Shown here: positions 8,693 through 19,926 of the stretch, one piece after another
Layout: each line of letters begins with the position of its first letter
How positions within the stretch are numbered: position 1 is the first letter of the stretch
Assembly (NCBI GenBank): GCA_900318015.1
Contig: ONJB01000072.1
Coordinates: forward strand, 1 to 32,550
Source: an uncultured Bacteroidales bacterium
Lineage (GTDB): Bacteria; Bacteroidota; Bacteroidia; Bacteroidales; UBA932
Length of the DNA: 32,550 nt
Direction of reading: 5' to 3'
Program-made: the position numbers and the translations under genes
Notes under the pieces: generated by a model
Databases searched by the model: none
Seen by the model: only the letters and a program-made list of their open reading frames with translations
Told to the model about the DNA's origin: nothing

Positions 8693-9298
8693 TTACAGGA
8701 CCTGGATGAGTTCGACGACGAACTTCAGGGCGCTGTACGGCGGGATGGCGTTGCCGGCTCCGCGCTCGCCATAGGCGAGGTCGTACGGCAGGTAGAGCTC
8801 GTACTTGGAGCCTTCCGCCATCAGCTGGAGGCCTTCGGTCCAGCCCTTGATGACCTGGTTCAGGCCGAAGACGGCCGGTTCGCCCCGTTTGTAGGAGCTG
8901 TCGAAGATCTGTCCGTTCGGGAAGGTACCCTCATAGTGGCACTTCACCTGGCTGGTGGCCGTTGGTTTCTTGCCGAAGCCCTGTTTCAGGACCTTGTACA
9001 TGAGGCCGCTGCCGGTGGCGCGGACCTGCGGGTCGCGGGCGGCCTTGGCGAGGAACTTCTCGCCTTCTTCCTTCGCGGCGGCGCCGGCTGCGGCGGCCCG
9101 CTCGGAAGCCTCTTCCTCCATCTCCTTGTAGAACTGCTCGAGAGCCTCGCCGGCCTCCTCCATCGAGATGGCGAGTTCCTCCCCCTGGAGCATGGCCTTC
9201 AAGCCGGCCACGAAATCGTCGAAATTGAGCCCGTGCACTCCGTTCTGGAGCAGGTTGCCGGCCAGGCTCATGCCGAATGCATAACTTTTCTTGTCCAT
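8693..9298 (-). CDS. FKBP-type peptidyl-prolyl isomerase (FkpA/Mip-like layout)
   Basis: The 201-residue protein has an N-terminal helical dimerisation segment (KKSYAFGMSLAGNLLQNG, then a Glu/Ala-rich helix around residues 50-80). A C-terminal FKBP domain follows, with VKCHYEGTFPNGQIFDSS, VIKGWTEGLQLM and YDLAYGERGAGNAIPP. It speeds prolyl cis-trans isomerisation in protein folding. No signal peptide is visible, so it is probably cytoplasmic even though the layout resembles periplasmic FkpA. It converges on btuB with a three-base gap. Its start codon lies only 20 bases from the divergent NRPS start, so its promoter must overlap the NRPS coding sequence. Confidence 0.92.
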   Translation of the reverse strand: MDKKSYAFGMSLAGNLLQNGVHGLNFDDFVAGLKAMLQGEELAISMEEAGEALEQFYKEMEEEASERAAAAGAAAKEEGEKFLAKAARDPQVRATGSGLMYKVLKQGFGKKPTATSQVKCHYEGTFPNGQIFDSSYKRGEPAVFGLNQVIKGWTEGLQLMAEGSKYELYLPYDLAYGERGAGNAIPPYSALKFVVELIQVL

Positions 9299-9318
9299 AG
9301 CTTAAATTCTAGAGCCAC

Positions 9319-12300
9319 ATGAGTAAGTCCGTTCCCAAATCTTCCCCCGCGAGCCCGGAAGAGGCCCGTACCTGGTTCGTCGAACATTTTTCGGCGTGCG
9401 CCGATCTGGATACGCGCCTGATTCCCGACCTGCATGCTGGCGGGCCGGGCGAGATGAAGCGGGTGGAATGTCCCATTGCGTTTGGAGCCAAGGACCTGGA
9501 TGCGCTTCGCCAGCGTTTCTCCTGCGACGCGGACATCCTGCTGACCACCGCTTTCGGTGTCACCGTTTCCGTCTGGAATGCCGATACGAAGGCGTTCTTC
9601 CCGACGGGAGGCGGCCAGCGGCCGGTCCTGGTGGAATGGACTCCGGAACAGTCCCTGGAAGAACTGGTCCGGAACCGGCAGGAACAGGCCGAGGGCGCGG
9701 CCCGATTCGGGGACTATACCTACGAAGACTGTGTCCGTGACTTGGGACCGGGATTCTCCGTCTCTTTCGACGGCCCCGATGACCCGGAAGCCGAAGTGGG
9801 GGACGATGCCCTTGCCTTCCGGCTGACGGACGCCGGCAAGGGCGGATTCAAGCTGGTGTGCCAGTTCCGTTCCGACCAGTACTCGGAGGGTATCCTGCAG
9901 CAGTTTGCGGACAGCTTCTCCGCCTGCCTGCTGTCCATGGGAAAGGCCGACAAGGTAAGTGACCTTGAGTTTGCGACGGAAAAGCAGGTGGCCGAGACCG
10001 ATTCCTTCAACCCGGAACCCTTCCCCGGCGACCCGGATGTGACTCTCCTGGACCTCTTCCGCGAGAATGTCGCCAAGTACCCCGACCATCCGGCCGTCGT
10101 CTTCCGCGATACGACGCTCACCTATGCCGAACTGGACGCGTTGACGGACCGGCTCGCCGCCTATGTCGCTTCGGTCGTGAAGCCCGGCGGCGTGGTGTCC
10201 GTCATCCTCAACCGGAACCAGTTCATGGTCGTCGCTCCGCTCGGTGTCCTGAAGGCCGGCTGCGCCTATGAGCCGCTGGACCCGTCCTATCCGACCGAGC
10301 GCCTTTCCTTCATGGTCCAGGATGCGGGAGCCTCCCTGCTCATCGCCGATCCCGGCCTGGAAGGCCTCATCAGCGGCTATGAGGGGCCGGTCCTGTCGAC
10401 GGACAAGATCCAGTCCCTGCCCGAGGGGAAGGCGAATGTGCCTGCGCCCGCGCCGGACGACCTGTTCATCCTGCTCTATACCAGCGGAACCACCGGTGTT
10501 CCCAAGGGCGTGCAGCTCTGCCACCGGAACATCTCCGTCTTCGCCCGGAACAATGACGCCTCCCTGGGCATCACGCAGGTTTCCCATACCGCGGCCTACG
10601 CCAGTTTCGGTTTCGACGCCAACATGAGCGATTTCTCCACGGCCCTCGCGGCCGGCGCGTCCCTGTATATCATCCCGGAGGAGATCCGGCTGGACCTCCT
10701 CGCCCTGAACGAATATTTCGAGCAGAACGGCATCACGCATTCGATGATGACCACGCAGGTGGCCACGCAGTTCGCCATCAACTTCCCGGAAAACAAGTCC
10801 CTGGTGGGCCTGTATACGGGCGGCGAGAAGATGGCCAGCTTCCCCGTGCCCAAGTTCGGCATGTTCAACTGCTACGGCCCTACGGAGACGACGGCCTATG
10901 TCGTGAGCAAGCATGTGACCGTCCAGGAACCCGACGTCCCGATCGGGCGTCCGCTTCCGGGCGTCCATGCCTTCATCGCCGGCAAGGGCGGCTGGCGGAT
11001 GCCGGTGGGCGCCGCCGGTGAGCTGCTGATTTCCGGCCTGCAGGTGGGCAAGGGCTATCTCGGCCGCCCGGAAAAGACGGCCGAAGTGTTCGTGGACAAC
11101 CCCTATACCGACGATCCTTTGTTCAAGCATATGTACCGGACCGGCGACATAGTCCGCTGGCGCGCCGACGGGGACATCGAGTTCATCGGCCGCAAGGACA
11201 TGCAGGTCAAGATCCGGGGCTTCCGGATCGAGCTGAAGGAAGTCGAGAGCGTGATCCGGGAGTTCCCCGGCATTTCGGACGTGACGGTCCAGGCCTTCGA
11301 CGAAGAAGGCGAGGGCGGCGGCAAGTTCCTGGCGGCCTATGTCGTCAGCGACGCCCCCGTGGATATCGACGCCCTGAATGCGTTCATCCTGGAGCGAAAG
11401 CCCCCGTACATGGTCCCTGCCGTGACGATGCAGATCGAAGCCATCCCGCTGAATGTCAATCAGAAAGTGGACCGGAAGGCCCTTCCGAAGCCCGAGGTCC
11501 GCAAGGCGGAGAAGCCCGCGGTGGAGGCTCCGCTCAATATCCTGGAACAGGACATCGCCGCGCTGATCAAGGAATCCGCGCACATCGACGGGTTCTCCCT
11601 GACGGATCCGCTCGTCTATGCCGGCCTGACCTCCCTGTCGGCCCTGCGGCTGGCCGTGGAGCTGCACAAGAAATACGGCATCTCGGTGGATATGCACACC
11701 TTTGTCAAGACGGCTACCCTGCAGAGCATCGAGAACGAGATCCTCACCTCCCTGATCTCCGGGCAGGCCGCCCACGGGGCGGGTGTCGCCTCGCACGGGA
11801 CCGGTCCGGAGCCGCTGACCTTCCAGCAGGAAGGCCTCTACTTCGAGTGCATGAAGGCCCCGGCCCAGACGGTCTATAACCTGCCGGAGATCTGGACCCT
11901 CCCGGGCTCCCTGGATCCGGAGAAGGTCCGGGATGCCGTCCTGAAAGTGATCAAGTGCCATCCGGTCCTGAATTCCCATTTCGAGATGCGGGAAGGCCAG
12001 GTGATGCTCGTCCCGTGCGAGCAGGAGCCGGAGGTGGGCATTTCGACCATCCCGGAGGAAAACCTCGAGGACTGCAAGGCCCATTTCCTGGAACCGTTCA
12101 ATCTCAGCGAAGGCCCCCTGTACCGCGCTGAAATCGTGAAGGCGGGCGAAGGTCTGTACCTGCTCACCGATTTCCATCACTTGGTCTTCGACGGCCGTTC
12201 CATGGACATTTTCATGACGGAGCTCTGCGCCGCCGTGGACGGCGTGGATCCGACTCCGGAAGAATACACCTATTACGATTATGCCGCGGACCAGAAAGCC

Positions 12301-15300
12301 GCGGAGGAAGGCGAGGAGTTCGCCGCCGCGGCCGCGTTCTTCCAGGAGAAGATGGCCGGCTGCGAAGGCGCCAGCGCCATCCTGCCCGACCGGGAGAAGG
12401 GCGACGCCGCCGGCGTGGTGGCCTCGTTGGAGATTCCCGTGGACGGGAAGATTGCCGAGCGCTGCCTGGCGCTGGGCATCTCTCCCGCCAGCTATTTCCT
12501 GTCGGCCGCCTTCCTCTCCGTCGGCGCCTTCTGCGGAAACAAGAAGGTCTATATCTGCACGGTCAGCAACGGCCGTTCGGACCTGAAGGTCTCCGACACG
12601 CTGGGCATGTTCGTGAATACGCTGGCCCTCGCCGGCGACACGGGCATGGAACAGGTGGCGGATTATCTCAAGGAAACGGACAATCTCTTCACCGAAACCC
12701 GTGCGCATGAATACTATCCTTTCGCCAAGGTCTCTTCCGACTACGGTTTCCAGCCGCAGGTGATGATGGCCTACCAGGTAGGCCTGCTGGAGGCCTACAA
12801 GATGGGCGGCGTCGAGATTTCCTCCGAGGACCTCGCCACCGAGACGCCGATGTTCCCGGTGAGCATTTTCGTCAACGGCGGGGAAGCGGCCGAAAGCATC
12901 CTCATCCAGTACGACGAGACCCTGTACAGCCAGGAACTCATGCAGAGTTTCGCCGATACGATGGCGCAGGTGCTGCGCGGGATGCTCGTGGACGGTCCGA
13001 TGGACGGCATCGCGCTCATCGACAAGAAACAGGAGAAGGTCCTGGACGGTTTCAATGCCTATACCCTTCCGGTGGACACCACGCAGACGATCGTGTCCCT
13101 GTTCCGGACCCAGGCCGCCCAGCGGCCGGACGCCCCGGCGGTGTGCTATGGAGGCAAGACGCTGACATACAAGGAACTGGACGAGGTATCCGACCGGATC
13201 GCCGCGTACATCGCCTCGCTGGGCCTCGGACGGGAAGACGTCGTCTCCGTCCTGATCGGCCGCAGCGAGAACATGGCCGTGGCCTCCCTCGGCGCCCTCA
13301 AGGCGGGCTGCGCCTACCAGCCGCTGGATCCTTCCTATCCCGCCGATGCGCAGTACAGGCCCCTGATCACTTCCTATGACGGCCCTGTCCTGGACACCGC
13401 GGATATCGCCGCGCTATCCGCGGGCCCCGTCCCGGAAGGTCCCACCCCGGAGAACCTGTTCATCCTCCTGTACACGTCCGGCTCCACCGGCGTTCCGAAG
13501 GGATGCATGCTCGAGCACCGCAACCTGGTGAACTTCTGCGCCTGGTACCGGAACTATTACGGACTTACCCCGGACAGTCGGGTGGCGGCCTATGCCAGCT
13601 ACGGCTTCGACGCCTGCATGATGGATATGTATCCCGCCCTGACGACGGGCGCCTCCGTGTATATCATTCCGGAGGAAACCCGGCACGACATGTCCGAACT
13701 GGACCGCTTCGTCACGGAGAACGGCGTCACCCATAGTTTCATGACGACACAGGTGGGCGTGATGTTCGCTCTGAACTATCCGGAGAATCCTTCCTTGAAG
13801 CATCTGTCTGTGGGCGGCGAGAAGCTCGTGTCGATGGACCCGCCTGCCTACGCCTTCCACAACGGGTACGGCCCGACGGAATGCACCATCTTCTCCACGA
13901 TCTTCGACGTGCAGAAGAAGGAACCGAACATCCCGATCGGCCATCCGCTGGACAACCTGCGGCTGTACGTGACGGACACCGCCGGACGCCGGCTTCCCGC
14001 GGGCGCCGTCGGCGAGCTCTGGATCTCCGGCCCGCAGGTGAGCCGGGGTTACCTGAACCGTCCGGAAAAGACGGCGGAGACCTTCATTGCCAACCCGTTC
14101 GCCCAGGAGTATCCCTATGACCGGGCGTACCGGACCGGCGACATCGTCCGGTACCGGCTGGACGGCAACATCGAATTCGTGGGCCGCAACGACGGCCAGG
14201 TCAAGATCCGGGGCTTCCGGGTGGAGACCAAGGAAGTGGAGGCCGTCATCCGGGAATTCCCGGGCGTGAAGGACGTGACGGTCCAGCCGTTCGACAATCC
14301 TTCCGGCGGCAAGTTCATCGCCGCGTACGTCGTGTGCGAAGGGGAGCTGGACACCAAGGCCCTGTCCGCCTTCATCCTGGAGCGGAAACCGCCGTACATG
14401 GTCCCGGCCGCGTTCGCGAAACTGGACAAGATTCCGCTGAACGTGAACCAGAAAGTGGACCGCAAGGCCCTGCCGGCGCCCGTGATGACTTCGGGCGGCG
14501 ACTATGTCCAGCCCGAGGGACCGACCGAGACCGCCCTGTGCGAAGTCTTCGCCGAAATCCTCGGCATGGAGCGGGTGGGCGCCACCGACAGCTTCTTCGA
14601 CCTGGGCGGTTCCTCGCTCATGGTGACGAGCGTGCTGGTGAGCGCTGAAAAGCGCGGCCTGAAGTTCTCCTACGGCGACGTGTTCAACAATCCGACGGCC
14701 CGTGCCCTGGCGGCCTTCCTGACAGGAGGCGCCGAAGCGCCGGCCGCGGACAAGGACGATGTCACCGCCTACGATTATTCCGCCATCGAAAACCTGCTCG
14801 CGGGCAATACCCTGGATGCTTTCCAGGCCGGAGAACGCCGCGGGCTCGGGAAGAACATCCTACTGACGGGCGCGACCGGTTTCCTGGGCATCCACGTCCT
14901 GCGCGAACTGATCGAGCAGACCGGGAAGGACACCGTCATCTGGTGCCTCCTCCGGGGCAAGGGCTCCATCACCGCGGAGCGCCGCCTGTCGGAGATGCTG
15001 GTGTACTACTTCGAGAAGAACTACCGTCCGCTCCTGGGCCGGAGGGTCCGGATGATCGAGGGCGACATCACGGGCGCGGAGATATTCGACGCCCTGCTCG
15101 TGTCCGGCACCCCGTTCGACCTGGTGGTGAACTGCGCGGCCAACGTCAAGCACTTCTCCCGCGGCGACGATATCCTGAAAGTCAATTATGTCGGCGTGCA
15201 GAACCTCGTCGGTTTCTGTATGGCCGCGAAGGCCCGGCTGATCCAGGTGTCCACCATCAGCGTGGGCGGCATGACCGAGGGTACCGTGCCGGTGGTCATG

Positions 15301-15960
15301 GACGAGCAGATGCTGTTCTTCGGGCAGAATACGGACAACCAGTACGTCGTGTCCAAGTTCCTGGCCGAACGGTGCATCCTGGAGAAGGTCGCGGAAGGCC
15401 GTCTGGACGCGAAGATCATCCGGGTGGGCAACCTGTCCCCGCGCGCCACGGACGGCGAGTTCCAGATCAACTTCAATTCGAACGCCTCGATGGGCCGCCT
15501 GAAGGCGTACCGGATGCTGGGCGGATGCCCGTACCCGCTGCTGGAGGAACGGATGGAGTTCTCGCCGATCGACCAGACCGCCCGCGCCGTCGTCCTGCTG
15601 GCCGGAACGCCCGCCGCGAACGTGGTCTTCCACGTGCAGAACGACCATATGCTGCCGATGGACGACATCCTTTCCCGGCTCCACAAGGATGACGGAAGCC
15701 CCCTGGACTATCTGGAGGTGGAAGAATTCGTCCGCCGGATGGACGAGGCCAAGGCCGATCCGGAGAAAGCCCGGATCCTTTCCAGCATCATCGCTTACTC
15801 GCAGGCGGAAGGCCAGGTCCAGATGGTGGAGAACGTGGCTTCGAGCGTCTTCTCCATGCAGGTGCTGCACCGGCTGGGATTCCGCTGGGACGAGACTTCC
15901 AGCGCGTATGTGGATATGATCTTCCGCATCCTGGACTCTTTCCGTTTCTTTGACGACTGA
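9319..15960 (+). CDS. Two-module NRPS ending in a thioester reductase domain
   Basis: The 2213-residue enzyme reads half-C/A/PCP/C/A/PCP/R. Residues 40-220 match only the C-terminal lobe of a condensation domain; no HHxxxDG is present there. A1 (242-735) has LLYTSGTTG at 385, NCYGPTETT at 517 and Lys716. PCP1 attaches phosphopantetheine at Ser772 (GLTSLS). The full C domain has HHLVFDG at 953-959. A2 (1250-1720) has LLYTSGSTG at 1383, NGYGPTE at 1515 and Lys1712, but lacks about 17 residues after PSYP. PCP2 uses Ser1766 (LGGSSL). The reductase starts near 1846 with GATGFLG and has Thr1979/Ser1981 and YVVSK (2009-2013). The enzyme should join two amino acids and release them as an aldehyde using NAD(P)H. 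My reading of the ten-residue specificity codes is DASMYGCAYK for A1 and DAMFSGGIFK for A2. The second resembles small aliphatic codes; neither is a secure call. No PPTase or exporter is in the window. Confidence 0.93.
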   Translation: MSKSVPKSSPASPEEARTWFVEHFSACADLDTRLIPDLHAGGPGEMKRVECPIAFGAKDLDALRQRFSCDADILLTTAFGVTVSVWNADTKAFFPTGGGQRPVLVEWTPEQSLEELVRNRQEQAEGAARFGDYTYEDCVRDLGPGFSVSFDGPDDPEAEVGDDALAFRLTDAGKGGFKLVCQFRSDQYSEGILQQFADSFSACLLSMGKADKVSDLEFATEKQVAETDSFNPEPFPGDPDVTLLDLFRENVAKYPDHPAVVFRDTTLTYAELDALTDRLAAYVASVVKPGGVVSVILNRNQFMVVAPLGVLKAGCAYEPLDPSYPTERLSFMVQDAGASLLIADPGLEGLISGYEGPVLSTDKIQSLPEGKANVPAPAPDDLFILLYTSGTTGVPKGVQLCHRNISVFARNNDASLGITQVSHTAAYASFGFDANMSDFSTALAAGASLYIIPEEIRLDLLALNEYFEQNGITHSMMTTQVATQFAINFPENKSLVGLYTGGEKMASFPVPKFGMFNCYGPTETTAYVVSKHVTVQEPDVPIGRPLPGVHAFIAGKGGWRMPVGAAGELLISGLQVGKGYLGRPEKTAEVFVDNPYTDDPLFKHMYRTGDIVRWRADGDIEFIGRKDMQVKIRGFRIELKEVESVIREFPGISDVTVQAFDEEGEGGGKFLAAYVVSDAPVDIDALNAFILERKPPYMVPAVTMQIEAIPLNVNQKVDRKALPKPEVRKAEKPAVEAPLNILEQDIAALIKESAHIDGFSLTDPLVYAGLTSLSALRLAVELHKKYGISVDMHTFVKTATLQSIENEILTSLISGQAAHGAGVASHGTGPEPLTFQQEGLYFECMKAPAQTVYNLPEIWTLPGSLDPEKVRDAVLKVIKCHPVLNSHFEMREGQVMLVPCEQEPEVGISTIPEENLEDCKAHFLEPFNLSEGPLYRAEIVKAGEGLYLLTDFHHLVFDGRSMDIFMTELCAAVDGVDPTPEEYTYYDYAADQKAAEEGEEFAAAAAFFQEKMAGCEGASAILPDREKGDAAGVVASLEIPVDGKIAERCLALGISPASYFLSAAFLSVGAFCGNKKVYICTVSNGRSDLKVSDTLGMFVNTLALAGDTGMEQVADYLKETDNLFTETRAHEYYPFAKVSSDYGFQPQVMMAYQVGLLEAYKMGGVEISSEDLATETPMFPVSIFVNGGEAAESILIQYDETLYSQELMQSFADTMAQVLRGMLVDGPMDGIALIDKKQEKVLDGFNAYTLPVDTTQTIVSLFRTQAAQRPDAPAVCYGGKTLTYKELDEVSDRIAAYIASLGLGREDVVSVLIGRSENMAVASLGALKAGCAYQPLDPSYPADAQYRPLITSYDGPVLDTADIAALSAGPVPEGPTPENLFILLYTSGSTGVPKGCMLEHRNLVNFCAWYRNYYGLTPDSRVAAYASYGFDACMMDMYPALTTGASVYIIPEETRHDMSELDRFVTENGVTHSFMTTQVGVMFALNYPENPSLKHLSVGGEKLVSMDPPAYAFHNGYGPTECTIFSTIFDVQKKEPNIPIGHPLDNLRLYVTDTAGRRLPAGAVGELWISGPQVSRGYLNRPEKTAETFIANPFAQEYPYDRAYRTGDIVRYRLDGNIEFVGRNDGQVKIRGFRVETKEVEAVIREFPGVKDVTVQPFDNPSGGKFIAAYVVCEGELDTKALSAFILERKPPYMVPAAFAKLDKIPLNVNQKVDRKALPAPVMTSGGDYVQPEGPTETALCEVFAEILGMERVGATDSFFDLGGSSLMVTSVLVSAEKRGLKFSYGDVFNNPTARALAAFLTGGAEAPAADKDDVTAYDYSAIENLLAGNTLDAFQAGERRGLGKNILLTGATGFLGIHVLRELIEQTGKDTVIWCLLRGKGSITAERRLSEMLVYYFEKNYRPLLGRRVRMIEGDITGAEIFDALLVSGTPFDLVVNCAANVKHFSRGDDILKVNYVGVQNLVGFCMAAKARLIQVSTISVGGMTEGTVPVVMDEQMLFFGQNTDNQYVVSKFLAERCILEKVAEGRLDAKIIRVGNLSPRATDGEFQINFNSNASMGRLKAYRMLGGCPYPLLEERMEFSPIDQTARAVVLLAGTPAANVVFHVQNDHMLPMDDILSRLHKDDGSPLDYLEVEEFVRRMDEAKADPEKARILSSIIAYSQAEGQVQMVENVASSVFSMQVLHRLGFRWDETSSAYVDMIFRILDSFRFFDD

Positions 15961-15965
15961 TCGGA

Positions 15966-17726
15966 ATGGCCTCTTTCATCGACAGGATCCGCACGTTTTT
16001 CAAGGAGAGGAAGGGTTCCCGCCTGATTCTCATCCTCCTGACGGCCCTCTTGCTGGAGCTGGTCGCCGCCCTGCAGTATACCTATACCCGAAACCTGCTG
16101 ATCAAGGAGGAAGAGCGGATTACGCGGATGGAACTGACGATGGAGTCCGAGATCATCCTCCATACCCTGGAGGAGGCGGAGCTGTCGATGTTCGAGAATG
16201 AATGGAGTGTCAAGGAGAGCCTGGCCCACCCGGATTCCCTGTTCGGAGCGGTCGGGCGGATGATCGAGAGCAATTCGAACGTCTCAGGCGCCTGTATTGC
16301 CGTGCTGCCGGATTACTATCCGGAAAAAGGCCGGCTTTTCGAACCCTATGCCCATCGGGAAGACGGACGGATCCTGGTGGACCAGATTGCCGGCCCCGAC
16401 CACGACTATACGCTGGGGCCCTACTTCCAGCAGGCGCTCCGGGAGGAAACGGAATTCTGGAGCGATCCGTATGACTACGGCGCGGACCCGGTCCAGAAAC
16501 TGACCACCTACACGTATCCCGTCCGGGACCGGTCGGGCCGTCTCGCGGCCATCTGCGGCCTGGACATCGACCTGACCTGGCTCAGCGATACCCTGAACGT
16601 CCATCCTTACTATCCCTCCAGCTTCGGTTTCATGCTCACCGGCCCCCGGGAGGAACGGGTTTCGTCTCGGACCATGGACTATGTGGCGGGCCTGGTGATG
16701 GACCCGACCGTCGACCGGACCATCCGGGGACGTCACCGGGTCAGTTGCATCGAATTCCGGGATCCCGTCAGCGGGAAGCGGGCCTATCTCGATTACAGGG
16801 CCCTGCCGCGGGATCCGGGCTGGATCGTCGCGGAGGTGTCCTACCGGGATGAGGTGCTGGCCCCGGTGCGAGCGATGATGTGGCGGATCCTGCTGATGGC
16901 CCTCGCGGGCTTTGCCTTCCTCCTCGTGATCATCCACCGGTTCGCCCGGAACGGGAAACGGCTCTGGGAGGCGGATGTGAAGCAGGCCCGCATCGGGAGC
17001 GAACTCCGGATCGCCCGGCGCATCCAGGAGGAAATGCTGCCGAAGGCTTCCCTGGACCGGAGCGACCTGACTGTCCAGGGATCCCTGGCGCCGGCCAAGG
17101 AAGTAGGGGGAGACCTCTTCGATTACTACATCCGGGAGGAGAAGCTGTTCTTCTGCATCGGAGACGTATGCGGGAAGGGCGTTCCGGCCGCCATGTTGAT
17201 GGCTGTCGTCCATTCCATGCTGCGGATGCTTTCCGAGCAGGAGGAGGCTCCCGCCCGGATTCTCGGGGAACTCAACCGCGAAGCGTGCCGGAACAATGCG
17301 ACGGGAACGTTCGTGACGCTCTTCCTGGGAGTACTGGACTTGTCCACCGGCCGCTTGCGGTACTGCAACGCCGGTCACGACCGCCCGGTCCTCGTCGGCG
17401 ACTCCGTGGAGGAACTGCCGGCCCTGGCGAACGTGCCGGTGGGAGCGTTCGACGATGTCACGTACCAGGAGCAGGAGGCCATGGTCGCTCCCGGGACCCT
17501 TCTGTTCCTCTATACGGACGGGGTAACCGAATCGATGGATGCCGACCGGAGGCAATACGGACGCGAGCGGCTCCTCGGAGCCCTGTCGGCCTGTCCCCGG
17601 AAACCGGATGTGCTGGTGCGCACGATCGAAGCCGGCGTCCGGGCCTTCGCCGGGGAGGCCGAGCAGAGTGACGACCTCACGATGCTCGCCATCCACTATC
17701 ATCCGAACGAGAATACAATAGGCTGA
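15966..17726 (+). CDS. Membrane-bound SpoIIE/RsbU-type PP2C phosphatase with extracellular sensor
   Basis: The 586-residue protein has a membrane segment at 18-38, a periplasmic Cache-like sensor region at about 45-300 (GPYFQQALRE, YTYPVRDRSGRLAAICGLDI) and a second membrane segment at 304-324. A short linker helix leads to a PP2C phosphatase domain. Catalytic motifs are VGGDLFDYY (Asp383), GDVCGKG (Asp400), YTDGVTE (Asp518) and SDDLTML (Asp569/570). Such enzymes dephosphorylate STAS anti-anti-sigma proteins in partner-switching pathways, and a STAS gene follows 27 bases later, which fits exactly. The ATG lies five bases after the NRPS stop, so the two are almost certainly co-transcribed. The ligand is unknown. 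No RsbW-like kinase is nearby. Confidence 0.9.
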   Translation: MASFIDRIRTFFKERKGSRLILILLTALLLELVAALQYTYTRNLLIKEEERITRMELTMESEIILHTLEEAELSMFENEWSVKESLAHPDSLFGAVGRMIESNSNVSGACIAVLPDYYPEKGRLFEPYAHREDGRILVDQIAGPDHDYTLGPYFQQALREETEFWSDPYDYGADPVQKLTTYTYPVRDRSGRLAAICGLDIDLTWLSDTLNVHPYYPSSFGFMLTGPREERVSSRTMDYVAGLVMDPTVDRTIRGRHRVSCIEFRDPVSGKRAYLDYRALPRDPGWIVAEVSYRDEVLAPVRAMMWRILLMALAGFAFLLVIIHRFARNGKRLWEADVKQARIGSELRIARRIQEEMLPKASLDRSDLTVQGSLAPAKEVGGDLFDYYIREEKLFFCIGDVCGKGVPAAMLMAVVHSMLRMLSEQEEAPARILGELNREACRNNATGTFVTLFLGVLDLSTGRLRYCNAGHDRPVLVGDSVEELPALANVPVGAFDDVTYQEQEAMVAPGTLLFLYTDGVTESMDADRRQYGRERLLGALSACPRKPDVLVRTIEAGVRAFAGEAEQSDDLTMLAIHYHPNENTIG

Positions 17727-17753
17727 TATTGAATGATATAAACATTTAGGAAT

Positions 17754-18056
17754 ATGAAAACAACCGTACAAGAACTGGATGGGAGACTGGTCGCCATCCT
17801 TGCCGGCGAACTGGACACCGCCTCGGCTGCGGAGACGGAAGCCGCGCTCAAACCCCTGTTCGACAGCACCGGAAAGGACCTCGTCCTCGACTGCACCGAT
17901 CTGCAGTACATCGCCTCGAGCGGCATCCGCATCCTGGTGAACCTGCTCAAGACGGCGAAGGCGAAGGGGGACCGGGTCGTCCTGAAGAATGTCAATGAGG
18001 TGATCCGGGACGTGCTGGAACTCACCGGGTTCGTCTCCTATTTCGTCTTCGAATGA
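17754..18056 (+). CDS. STAS-domain anti-anti-sigma factor (RsbV/SpoIIAA-like)
   Basis: This 100-residue single-domain protein has the STAS core LAGELDTASAAETEAAL and LVLDCTDLQYIASSGIRIL. Ser56, in the ASSG motif, sits where SpoIIAA is phosphorylated by its partner kinase. In known systems the unphosphorylated form binds an anti-sigma kinase and frees a sigma factor or other target. The upstream SpoIIE-type phosphatase is the likely activator. A TTAGGAAT stretch precedes the start. The stop overlaps the next gene by four bases (ATGA). Confidence 0.92.
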   Translation: MKTTVQELDGRLVAILAGELDTASAAETEAALKPLFDSTGKDLVLDCTDLQYIASSGIRILVNLLKTAKAKGDRVVLKNVNEVIRDVLELTGFVSYFVFE

Positions 18057-19345
18057 AACGGCTTGCCCTGATGCTCCTGGCCGCCCTGCCGCTCTGTGCC
18101 CGGGCGCAGGAAAACACGTTCTCGGTCGATGCCGATTACCTCACGCGCGGTGAGATCCGGCGTGGCGGCATTTCTGTCGAGGAAGACGGGGATGCGCTCA
18201 ATTCGCGTTTCATCCTCAGCAGGACCCGTCTGGGAGCTTCCTATTCCCGCGACTGGCTGACGGCGCGTCTGACCGCCCAGCATGCCGACACCTGGGGAAG
18301 TGCGGCCGGAAACGGCCTGTCGATGAACGAGGCCTGGGTGAAAGCGCAGCTTCCGGTGGGCTTCTTCGCCCAGATCGGCCGCCAGCGTCTCTCGTATGAC
18401 GACCAGCGTATCTTCGGCGCAGACGACTGGTCCATGACCGGCTACTCCCACGACGGCTTGAAACTGGGATTCGAGCGGGCCGGACACAAGGTCCATCTGT
18501 TCGGCGCCTATAACCAGGATGTGAACAACATCGACGAGGGCGGCACCCGCTTTTCCGGAGGCATCCAGCCGTACAAGTCCCTGGCTTCCTTCTGGTATCA
18601 CTTCGATATCCCGAAAACCAACATCGGCGCCTCCCTTCTCTTCGTCAATATGGGCCTGGAAAGCATGAATGTCGGGGAAGAAGATACCTATACGACGTAT
18701 TTCCAGCAGCTTGCCGGCTCTTTCCTGTCTTGGACTCCGGAGCATTTCGGGCTGGAGGCGTCCTATTACCACCAGTGGGGAAAGGCTTTTGGAGGCATTC
18801 CCCTGAATGCGTGGATGGCCAGCGCGAAAGCCACGGCCACGCCGTCGGAGCACTGGTCGTTCCGGGCCGGCTATGATTACCTGAGCGGTGAGGAGGATTT
18901 TCCTATCCCGGGAGGGGGCAACATCGGCCTGGTGCGGCACGAGATCGTCCGGGGATTCAATTCCCTGTACGGTTCGAACCACAAGTTTTACGGGGCGATG
19001 GATTTCTTCTATGTGTCGACGTATGTGAACGGATTCACGCCCGGCCTCCAGAATCTCTATGCCGGCGTTTCCTGGACCCCCGTCCAGCAACTGTCGGCGG
19101 ACGCCGCCTACCATTTCTTCTCCACGGCCGCTCCCGTCAAGGATGCCAAGCGGGCTCTGGGACATGAGGTGGAGCTGGCGTTGACCTGGACCATCGTCCC
19201 TTCCGTGTCGCTCAGCGCCGGCTATTCGTTCATGCAAGGCACCGAGACCATGTCCGTCCTCAAGCGGAGTGCCAATAACAACCGGTTGCACTGGGGCTGG
19301 CTGATGCTGAACGTGACCCCGACCTTCTTCAAAGGGAAATGGTGA
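18053..19345 (+). CDS. Outer-membrane beta-barrel protein, porin-like (alginate-export-type fold)
   Basis: The 430-residue protein has a signal peptide (MKRLALMLLAALPLCARA) followed by alternating amphipathic strands throughout. Examples are TRLGASYSRDWLTARLTAQ, AWVKAQLPVGFFAQIGRQRL and LHWGWLMLNVTPTF. The segment QIGRQRLSYDDQRIFGADDW is typical of porins with an alginate-export-like barrel. No plug domain or TonB box is seen, so it is a passive channel rather than a TonB-dependent receptor. Its cargo cannot be read. Placement after the NRPS and switch genes, and before PnuC, leaves both metabolite exit and vitamin entry open. Confidence 0.72.
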   Translation: MKRLALMLLAALPLCARAQENTFSVDADYLTRGEIRRGGISVEEDGDALNSRFILSRTRLGASYSRDWLTARLTAQHADTWGSAAGNGLSMNEAWVKAQLPVGFFAQIGRQRLSYDDQRIFGADDWSMTGYSHDGLKLGFERAGHKVHLFGAYNQDVNNIDEGGTRFSGGIQPYKSLASFWYHFDIPKTNIGASLLFVNMGLESMNVGEEDTYTTYFQQLAGSFLSWTPEHFGLEASYYHQWGKAFGGIPLNAWMASAKATATPSEHWSFRAGYDYLSGEEDFPIPGGGNIGLVRHEIVRGFNSLYGSNHKFYGAMDFFYVSTYVNGFTPGLQNLYAGVSWTPVQQLSADAAYHFFSTAAPVKDAKRALGHEVELALTWTIVPSVSLSAGYSFMQGTETMSVLKRSANNNRLHWGWLMLNVTPTFFKGKW

Positions 19346-19353
19346 ACTGAAAG

Positions 19354-19926
19354 ATGAGCGTCATCGAAATCATCGAGATCTTCGCCCTGGTGACGGGTGT
19401 CGCCTACGTCGTCCTGGAGATCCTCCAGAAGAATGCGATGTGGGTGGTGGGCATCCTCACCGGCGCGGCCTGCGCGTACAGTTTCGCGGTGCAGCGGAGC
19501 TGGGGGATGATGGGCCTGAACCTCTATTACATCGTGATGTCCGTCATCGGCCTCGTGCAGTGGAGGAAGGACGATGCCGCGGTAGGGGAGGATGTGATCC
19601 ATCTGCGGTCCCTGCCGAAGAAAACGGCCCTCTGGAGCGCCGTGGGCTTCGTCCTGGGCTCCCTCGTCCTCATCTGGGTGTTCCGTGCCCTGGGGGACGG
19701 GGTGTCCGAATTGGATGCCCCCGCGACGGTCCTGAGCGTCATCGCGACCTGGTGGCTCACCCGTTCGTACATCCAGCAGTGGATGCTGTGGGTGGTGGCC
19801 GATGCCCTGACCACGATGCTCTGCGTGGTGAACGGCCAGTACTGGATGGCGTTCCTGTATCTCGCCTACATCGCCTCGGCGGTGTACGGCTATTGTCATT
19901 GGAAAAAGAAAGGAGTGGAACTATGA
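19354..19926 (+). CDS. pnuC: PnuC-family vitamin precursor transporter
   Basis: This inner-membrane protein of 190 residues has about seven hydrophobic helices. It has the family motifs ILQKNAMWVVGILTGAACAY, NLYYIVMSVIGLVQW and TRSYIQQWMLWVVADAL. PnuC carriers pass nicotinamide riboside by facilitated diffusion; the PnuT and PnuX branches carry thiamine or riboflavin. No thiamine riboswitch precedes it and no thiamine gene is adjacent, so nicotinamide riboside is the default reading with moderate confidence. It overlaps the next gene by four bases. Confidence 0.88.
   Translation: MSVIEIIEIFALVTGVAYVVLEILQKNAMWVVGILTGAACAYSFAVQRSWGMMGLNLYYIVMSVIGLVQWRKDDAAVGEDVIHLRSLPKKTALWSAVGFVLGSLVLIWVFRALGDGVSELDAPATVLSVIATWWLTRSYIQQWMLWVVADALTTMLCVVNGQYWMAFLYLAYIASAVYGYCHWKKKGVEL

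Follow-up and report, generated by a model that had tools for sequence, protein, structure and literature searches.

The closest described counterparts of the system reported here come from a bacterium and an archaeon. The aureusimine synthetase AusA of Staphylococcus aureus is a nonribosomal peptide synthetase (NRPS) whose domain order, in the sections of PMC12153313 that deal with it, is given as A1-T1-C-A2-T2-R (adenylation, A; carrier, T or PCP; condensation, C; reductase, R), with reductive release of a dipeptide aldehyde from which pyrazinones then form. The NRPS mru0068 of Methanobrevibacter ruminantium M1, as portrayed in passages of PMC2812497, has two C-A-T modules, and beside it are encoded two serine phosphatases, MatE and an anti-sigma factor antagonist; the last domain of the NRPS is a thioester reductase in the legend of Fig. 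S8 and a thioesterase in the main text. The same passages suggest sensing, regulation and export for its surroundings and call the NRPS products of M. ruminantium unknown. Here we analyze an NRPS gene of an uncultured Bacteroidales bacterium, located at 9319..15960 on the plus strand of contig ONJB01000072.1, and its association with genes for a SpoIIE phosphatase and a STAS protein. The window, meaning the whole 32,550-base contig (C82) that was analyzed, belongs to a metagenome-assembled genome (MAG) of 3.2 Mb that is 92.5% complete.

The gene encodes a 2213-residue, two-module protein with the order halfC-A-PCP-C-A-PCP-R, as supported by the open reading frame (ORF), its translation, Pfam and the NCBIfam AusA model. 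Pfam returned AMP-binding (2.8e-132, three stretches), AMP-binding_C and PP-binding (two stretches each), Condensation over residues 832-1223 (1e-47, a single stretch) and NAD_binding_4 over residues 1849-2090 (2e-29). On the plus strand, the first A domain (10057..11505, residues 247-729, ends approximate; Pfam and code positions) is followed by the PCP1 carrier serine 772 in GLTSL (11632..11634; translation and motif), a C domain with HHLVFDG at residue 953 (11812..12987; Pfam and motif), the second A domain (13066..14478; code positions and alignment), the PCP2 carrier serine 1766 in LGGSSL (14614..14616; translation and motif) and a terminal thioester reductase (14857..15957; Pfam, motifs and solved-structure matches) with GATGFLG at residue 1851, ST at 1978-1979 and YVVSK at 2009. 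All motifs cited in a preliminary description, which also included two LLYTSG(T/S)TG loops, were present, and the order A-PCP-C-A-PCP-R that it had read from them was recovered in one chain; the half C domain at the N-terminus, a 17-residue gap in A2 and a beta-barrel gene in the same gene run had been overlooked. The ORF is real and its architecture is not a product of chance: 67 near-full-length proteins, the window's included, align. The ratio of nonsynonymous to synonymous substitution rates (dN/dS) was 0.03-0.26 wherever dS could be estimated (12 pairs by 7 regions; four PCP cells were zero and five cells gave no dS estimate). The NRPS is the sole Condensation match in the genome, and one PPTase-family match lies elsewhere in it, on contig C96.

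The window NRPS shares its domain order with AusA, whose NCBIfam model was its top match, and the R domains are homologous (4f6l, E 5e-39). It differs in carrying half a C domain in front and in its SpoIIE/STAS neighbors; the ausAB cluster, in the part of PMC12153313 that covers it, has a PPTase instead. Scored at 917 bits against the model's cut-off of 2500, the protein was rejected as an AusA orthologue, nor did this model show near-identity to an NRPS whose product is known. The reductive release proposed at the outset is well supported: PCP2-R matches solved PCP-R chains as well as the AusA R chain, the best match being 6vtj (E 1e-88 over 485 residues). The 6vtj/6vtz PCP-R didomain comes from M. 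ruminantium.

The likeness to mru0068 lies in the setting. The window has a reductase-ended NRPS beside a serine phosphatase and a STAS protein (15966-18056), and the full-length Bacteroidales clusters resemble the mru0068 cluster as outlined in PMC2812497. This likeness is one of description, the sequences not having been compared; the host there is archaeal, the window protein is without the starter C lobe, and MatE gave no match in the 29 window ORFs scanned. Since the mru0068 constellation was described in 2010, the NRPS-switch association has, as far as those passages go, a precedent. In a literature search that covered few subscription papers, only PMC2812497 was found on this association; its distribution across Bacteroidales, the fusion of sensor, phosphatase and kinase, and the recurrent starter-lobe losses were not found.

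At a probability of about 0.6, we favor the reading that this is an AusA-like NRPS making a dipeptide aldehyde that becomes a dihydropyrazinone or pyrazinone, or in full-length relatives an N-acyl aldehyde, together with a linked partner switch. The domains, the motifs, the linkage, the lost lobe and the A2 gap are seen directly in the sequence, whereas the substrates, the product and the direction of regulation are what we infer from it. A1 and A2 would each activate one amino acid, the internal C domain would join both on PCP2, and the R domain would reduce the thioester to a dipeptide aldehyde. Without a functional starter C domain in the window protein, the first amine would be free and the aldehyde should cyclize to a dihydropyrazinone or pyrazinone, as would also be expected of the other half-C and no-C forms. 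In full-length relatives an N-acyl dipeptide aldehyde would be more likely, since the starter-C motif is intact in 55 of the 67 rows, and an N-acylated product could not give a free-amine pyrazinone. The dipeptide aldehyde or pyrazinone of the preliminary description remains the best guess for the window enzyme; for those 55 relatives an N-acylated product is the likelier one. The sensor-PP2C phosphatase, an RsbW-like kinase and the STAS protein would form a partner switch in which a cue outside the membrane sets STAS phosphorylation, adjusting production, export or response. To judge from gene content and linkage, this switch probably controls, or reads, product formation.

The segment preceding A1 is the C-lobe of a starter C domain (residues 14-235, 9358..10023, plus strand), from which the HHxxxDG lobe is absent, as recognized by alignment with full-length relatives and by a C-lobe profile. 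An N-terminal C domain with HHxxxD(G/A) is present in 55/67 rows and L069 has the lobe without the motif; the remaining 11 (window, L032, L041, L068, L033, L036, L039, L104, L090, L110 and L053) have no N-lobe, and all 11 keep the C-lobe. Compared with four full-length rows, the NGR...GM.V.TLPV stretch is shortened in 10 of these 11 and, in L090, altered but just one column shorter. When 60 C-lobes, those of full-length proteins among them, were combined into a profile, it matched solved C/E domains over their C-terminal part (best 9rde, E 1e-21); the window piece alone gave no solved-structure match at E<=1 and no Pfam Condensation match. A search of 12 upstream stretches (6-10 kb; 0.5 kb for L053) for what might be left of the N-lobe recovered both controls but no remnant at E<1.

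Three changes are needed to explain the N-lobe distribution on both the C-lobe tree and the tree of the rest of the protein. Most simply these would be three losses, each leaving the C-lobe; alternatively, there may have been fewer losses with later regain by recombination. A single clade of the 11 half-C rows was rejected on the C-lobe (p-AU 5e-7, for a group chosen after the tree was seen and with long branches present). L110 groups with L104 on the C-lobe tree and with L053 on the other, a sign that its N-terminal part may have recombined. The dN/dS of the C-lobe was 0.09-0.26 in nine half-C pairs and 0.10-0.19 in three full-length pairs.

Specificity codes were read at positions that we set on GrsA numbering. 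The A1 code DASMYGCAYK is common to the window, L032 and L041, and 40 distinct A1 codes occur in the 67 rows; the A2 code DAMFSGGIFK, also the window's, recurs in 38/67, with 8 distinct A2 codes overall. Among solved structures A2 matched LgrA best, in its first A domain (346.6 bits), which takes Val, so we guess an aliphatic residue for A2. Across 57 rows the A2 pocket was more conserved than the A2 core (19202 of 20000 random draws at least as high). Diversifying selection on the A1 pocket was considered but not borne out, its mean entropy being not unusual for the A1 core (5766/20000 draws as high; 57 rows). In the window alone, 17 residues (51 bases, in frame) are missing from A2 directly after LDPSYP, at 13342; all 66 remaining rows retain this stretch in full, and against LgrA the A2 alignment is likewise short there.

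The gene run around the NRPS is the more interesting part of the preliminary description. Directly downstream on the plus strand lie genes for a membrane sensor phosphatase with a PDC-type sensor and a PP2C (SpoIIE) domain but no kinase domain (15966..17726; Pfam), for a STAS anti-sigma-antagonist-like protein with YIASSGI at the usual phosphoserine (17754..18056; domain and motif matches), and for a predicted outer-membrane beta-barrel (18053..19345; Alginate_exp above cut-off in Pfam), so that the regulatory operon first proposed is indeed in place. Together with the PnuC gene that follows, the run is co-directional, with gaps of 5, 27, -4 and 8 bases. The earlier statement that no exporter is adjacent holds only in part, given the predicted outer-membrane barrel in the operon. 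The barrel profile gave no match to solved structures at E<=0.1. Three HATPase_c_2 matches over cut-off lie elsewhere in the genome, on C56, C68 and C69, and these proteins could supply the kinase for the window STAS.

To see how far this association extends, we compared the window with 79 related loci (L numbers), 327 stretches having been confirmed and the best 80 kept. With thresholds of at least 60 bits for SpoIIE and at least 40 bits for STAS, SpoIIE lay within 10 kb of the NRPS in 49/79 loci, STAS in 52/79, the barrel in 29/79 and any of the three in 54/79; for loci with at least 5 kb upstream the counts were 41/60, 43/60, 24/60 and 45/60. By BLAST, the nearest SpoIIE ORFs of the 49 loci and the window (n=50) all had PP2C, 47 had the PDC sensor and 41 a fused RsbW-like kinase, Pfam-checked on L101. 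They stood upstream on the same strand in 36 cases, downstream on the same strand in nine, upstream on the opposite strand in three and downstream on the opposite strand in two; over the 44 linked rows, the tree shows 7 arrangement changes. Sections of PMC8256260 describe the same components in RsbU/RsbV/RsbW, which, like SypE/SypA, is comparable with the family here in its PP2C phosphatase, STAS protein with a conserved serine and RsbW-like kinase; the family differs in that the kinase is fused to the phosphatase in those 41 ORFs and absent from the window's protein. No sigma factor was recognized in the gene clusters examined.

Co-occurrence was assessed in 61 genomes of the genus (G numbers), taking at least 50% identity and at least 500 bits as a close NRPS and at least 400 bits as a strong SpoIIE. 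A close NRPS was present in 11 genomes and a strong SpoIIE in nine, all within those 11 (hypergeometric 3e-9), and the barrel in 11/11 genomes with a close NRPS and 6/50 others (3e-8); these values come from thresholds set after the tables were seen and are uncorrected for kinship. In six of the nine strong-SpoIIE genomes the NRPS and SpoIIE matches are adjacent on one contig. The idea that the barrel is a part made for this product is weakened, since the barrel also occurs in those 6/50 genomes without a close NRPS.

Several observations weigh against the reading of an AusA-like NRPS tied to a partner switch. SpoIIE is not within 10 kb in 30/79 loci, some on short contigs, and is missing in 19 of the 60 loci with at least 5 kb upstream, including the close kin L068 and L036 and the full-length L038, L042 and L044; among these 19, STAS is still near the NRPS in L051, L056, L081 and L082, and an RsbW-like gene in L080. 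Strong SpoIIE matches lie on a contig other than that of the NRPS in G022, G046 and G054, and two further genomes with the NRPS, G018 and G037, have no strong SpoIIE match. Twelve of the 50 nearest SpoIIE ORFs are at most 34% identical to the window's, to which a genome paralogue reaches 38%; being no closer than that paralogue, they tie the NRPS to a type of switch that is not in every case the same orthologue. The window's SpoIIE protein, like those of L032 and L041, has no kinase domain. Of 12 pairs, 10 show lower identity in the C-lobe than in A1, one shows no difference and one is a point higher in the C-lobe, so the C-lobe is constrained but loosely. The A2 gap, finally, may cripple A2 and impair the window copy, or may be a MAG assembly error.

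Whether the NRPS is decaying in this strain, with little or no product made, has to be weighed at this point. The starter C domain is reduced to one half, with no N-lobe match upstream at E<1, the A2 stretch that every other row retains is missing, against LgrA as well, and the sensor has no kinase. An intact frame over 2213 codons speaks against decay, as does the window-L032 pair, in which dN/dS is 0.04-0.12 in the C-lobe, A1, C, A2 and R and zero in both PCPs; the gap in A2 might stem from faulty MAG assembly, and the lobe loss and missing kinase, being common to the window, L032 and L041, are not recent decay. We consider this explanation unlikely. Much the same holds for the proposal that SpoIIE and STAS are beside the NRPS only because the locus is favorable and that, like their genome paralogues, they act in some other response. 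It can draw on the SpoIIE-STAS-barrel set of G022 and G046, whose contig does not carry the NRPS, on SpoIIE plus barrel in G054, on another SpoIIE/STAS pair in the same genome that adjoins RelA_SpoT and HD_4 genes, and on 12/56 scorable rows that are unlinked. It accounts poorly for linkage that recurs over NRPSs down to 41% identity, in the four arrangements and with the 7 changes noted above, for the standalone RsbW-like genes found close to the NRPS in L051, L056, L080 and L081, four loci where SpoIIE gave no match, and for the similar constellation around mru0068 in the account given in PMC2812497; we judge it improbable.

A third explanation, that the product is a peptide aldehyde inhibiting rumen or competitor proteases and that the switch merely times production, is possible though still doubtful. 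R-domain release gives an aldehyde, and among the 80 clustered sequences (window plus 79 loci) the recurrent neighbors include MATE in 12 and SNF-type symporters in 11, alongside a PPTase in 10 and standalone RsbW in five (one or two of each Pfam-checked). No protease target or immunity gene was recognized near the window NRPS in the ORFs scanned, and the present evidence does not separate this role from a signaling one.

A bolder extension of the favored reading would join its parts into one signaling circuit, in which an exported reduced dipeptide binds the PDC (Cache-type) domain of the linked SpoIIE, which dephosphorylates STAS. The variable A1 and nearly fixed A2 would then give dialects of one signal, set by A1, and lobe loss would switch the signal from N-acyl aldehyde to pyrazinone. 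We regard this circuit as a long shot; if it were true, a single peptide-aldehyde/pyrazinone signal would be used, in differing dialects, by related rumen Bacteroidales and by methanogens that carry a similar cassette. Apart from the circuit, the family combines one residue that hardly changes with one that varies, a sensor switch common to its members and recurrent loss of the acylating lobe. It lends itself to asking directly whether the chemistry changes from acyl aldehyde to pyrazinone and whether the sensor responds to the product, and a similar constellation in a methanogen would carry these questions across domains. Overall, the observation is sound. The enzyme is of a type already known, its setting is less familiar and can be tested, and this exact copy may be impaired; the lost starter lobe and the signaling link are the points worth testing.

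Rumen NRPS clusters number in the thousands, with 5,346 counted in a portion of PMC8241843. As we read their codes (RUG, RGIG, rumen, reindeer, sheep, RUI), 59 of the 79 related loci come from ruminant sets or hosts, which are unstated for the other 20. A plasmid search gave 2848 records, all below 60% identity; the 15 matches listed were at 29-32%. A third NRPS form, of about 2000 residues and without the N-terminal C domain, occurs in L040, with similar open frames in G010, G026, G036 and G046. In L040 (3956-17236) it belongs to a tandem pair of reductase-ended NRPS genes, one of 2009 residues without the N-terminal C domain and one of 2414 residues with it.

At the end of the window's gene run, the co-directional PnuC nicotinamide riboside transporter gene (19354..19926, plus strand; Pfam and NCBIfam) is probably a bystander. 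On the other side, an FKBP-type isomerase gene (8693..9298, minus strand; ORF and Pfam) is divergent from the NRPS, the two starts being 20 bases apart (9298-9319), and the NRPS may in fact begin, or have its promoter, at another position.

The window's genome, the sole background genome surveyed for this, has five SpoIIE genes including the NRPS-linked one. A second SpoIIE/STAS switch adjoins a RelA_SpoT-domain protein in two genomes, at L092 18774-23049 and at L126 3875-8874 (contig C56 of G000); the L092 locus also has an HD_4 protein (Pfam-checked). The arrangement hints at a partner switch coupled to (p)ppGpp enzymes. A gene for an NMT1/THI5-like binding protein directly precedes the SpoIIE gene in L084 (15920-18798), where it is also beside the NRPS, and in L130 (4553-7515), which makes a binding-protein-coupled sensor possible.

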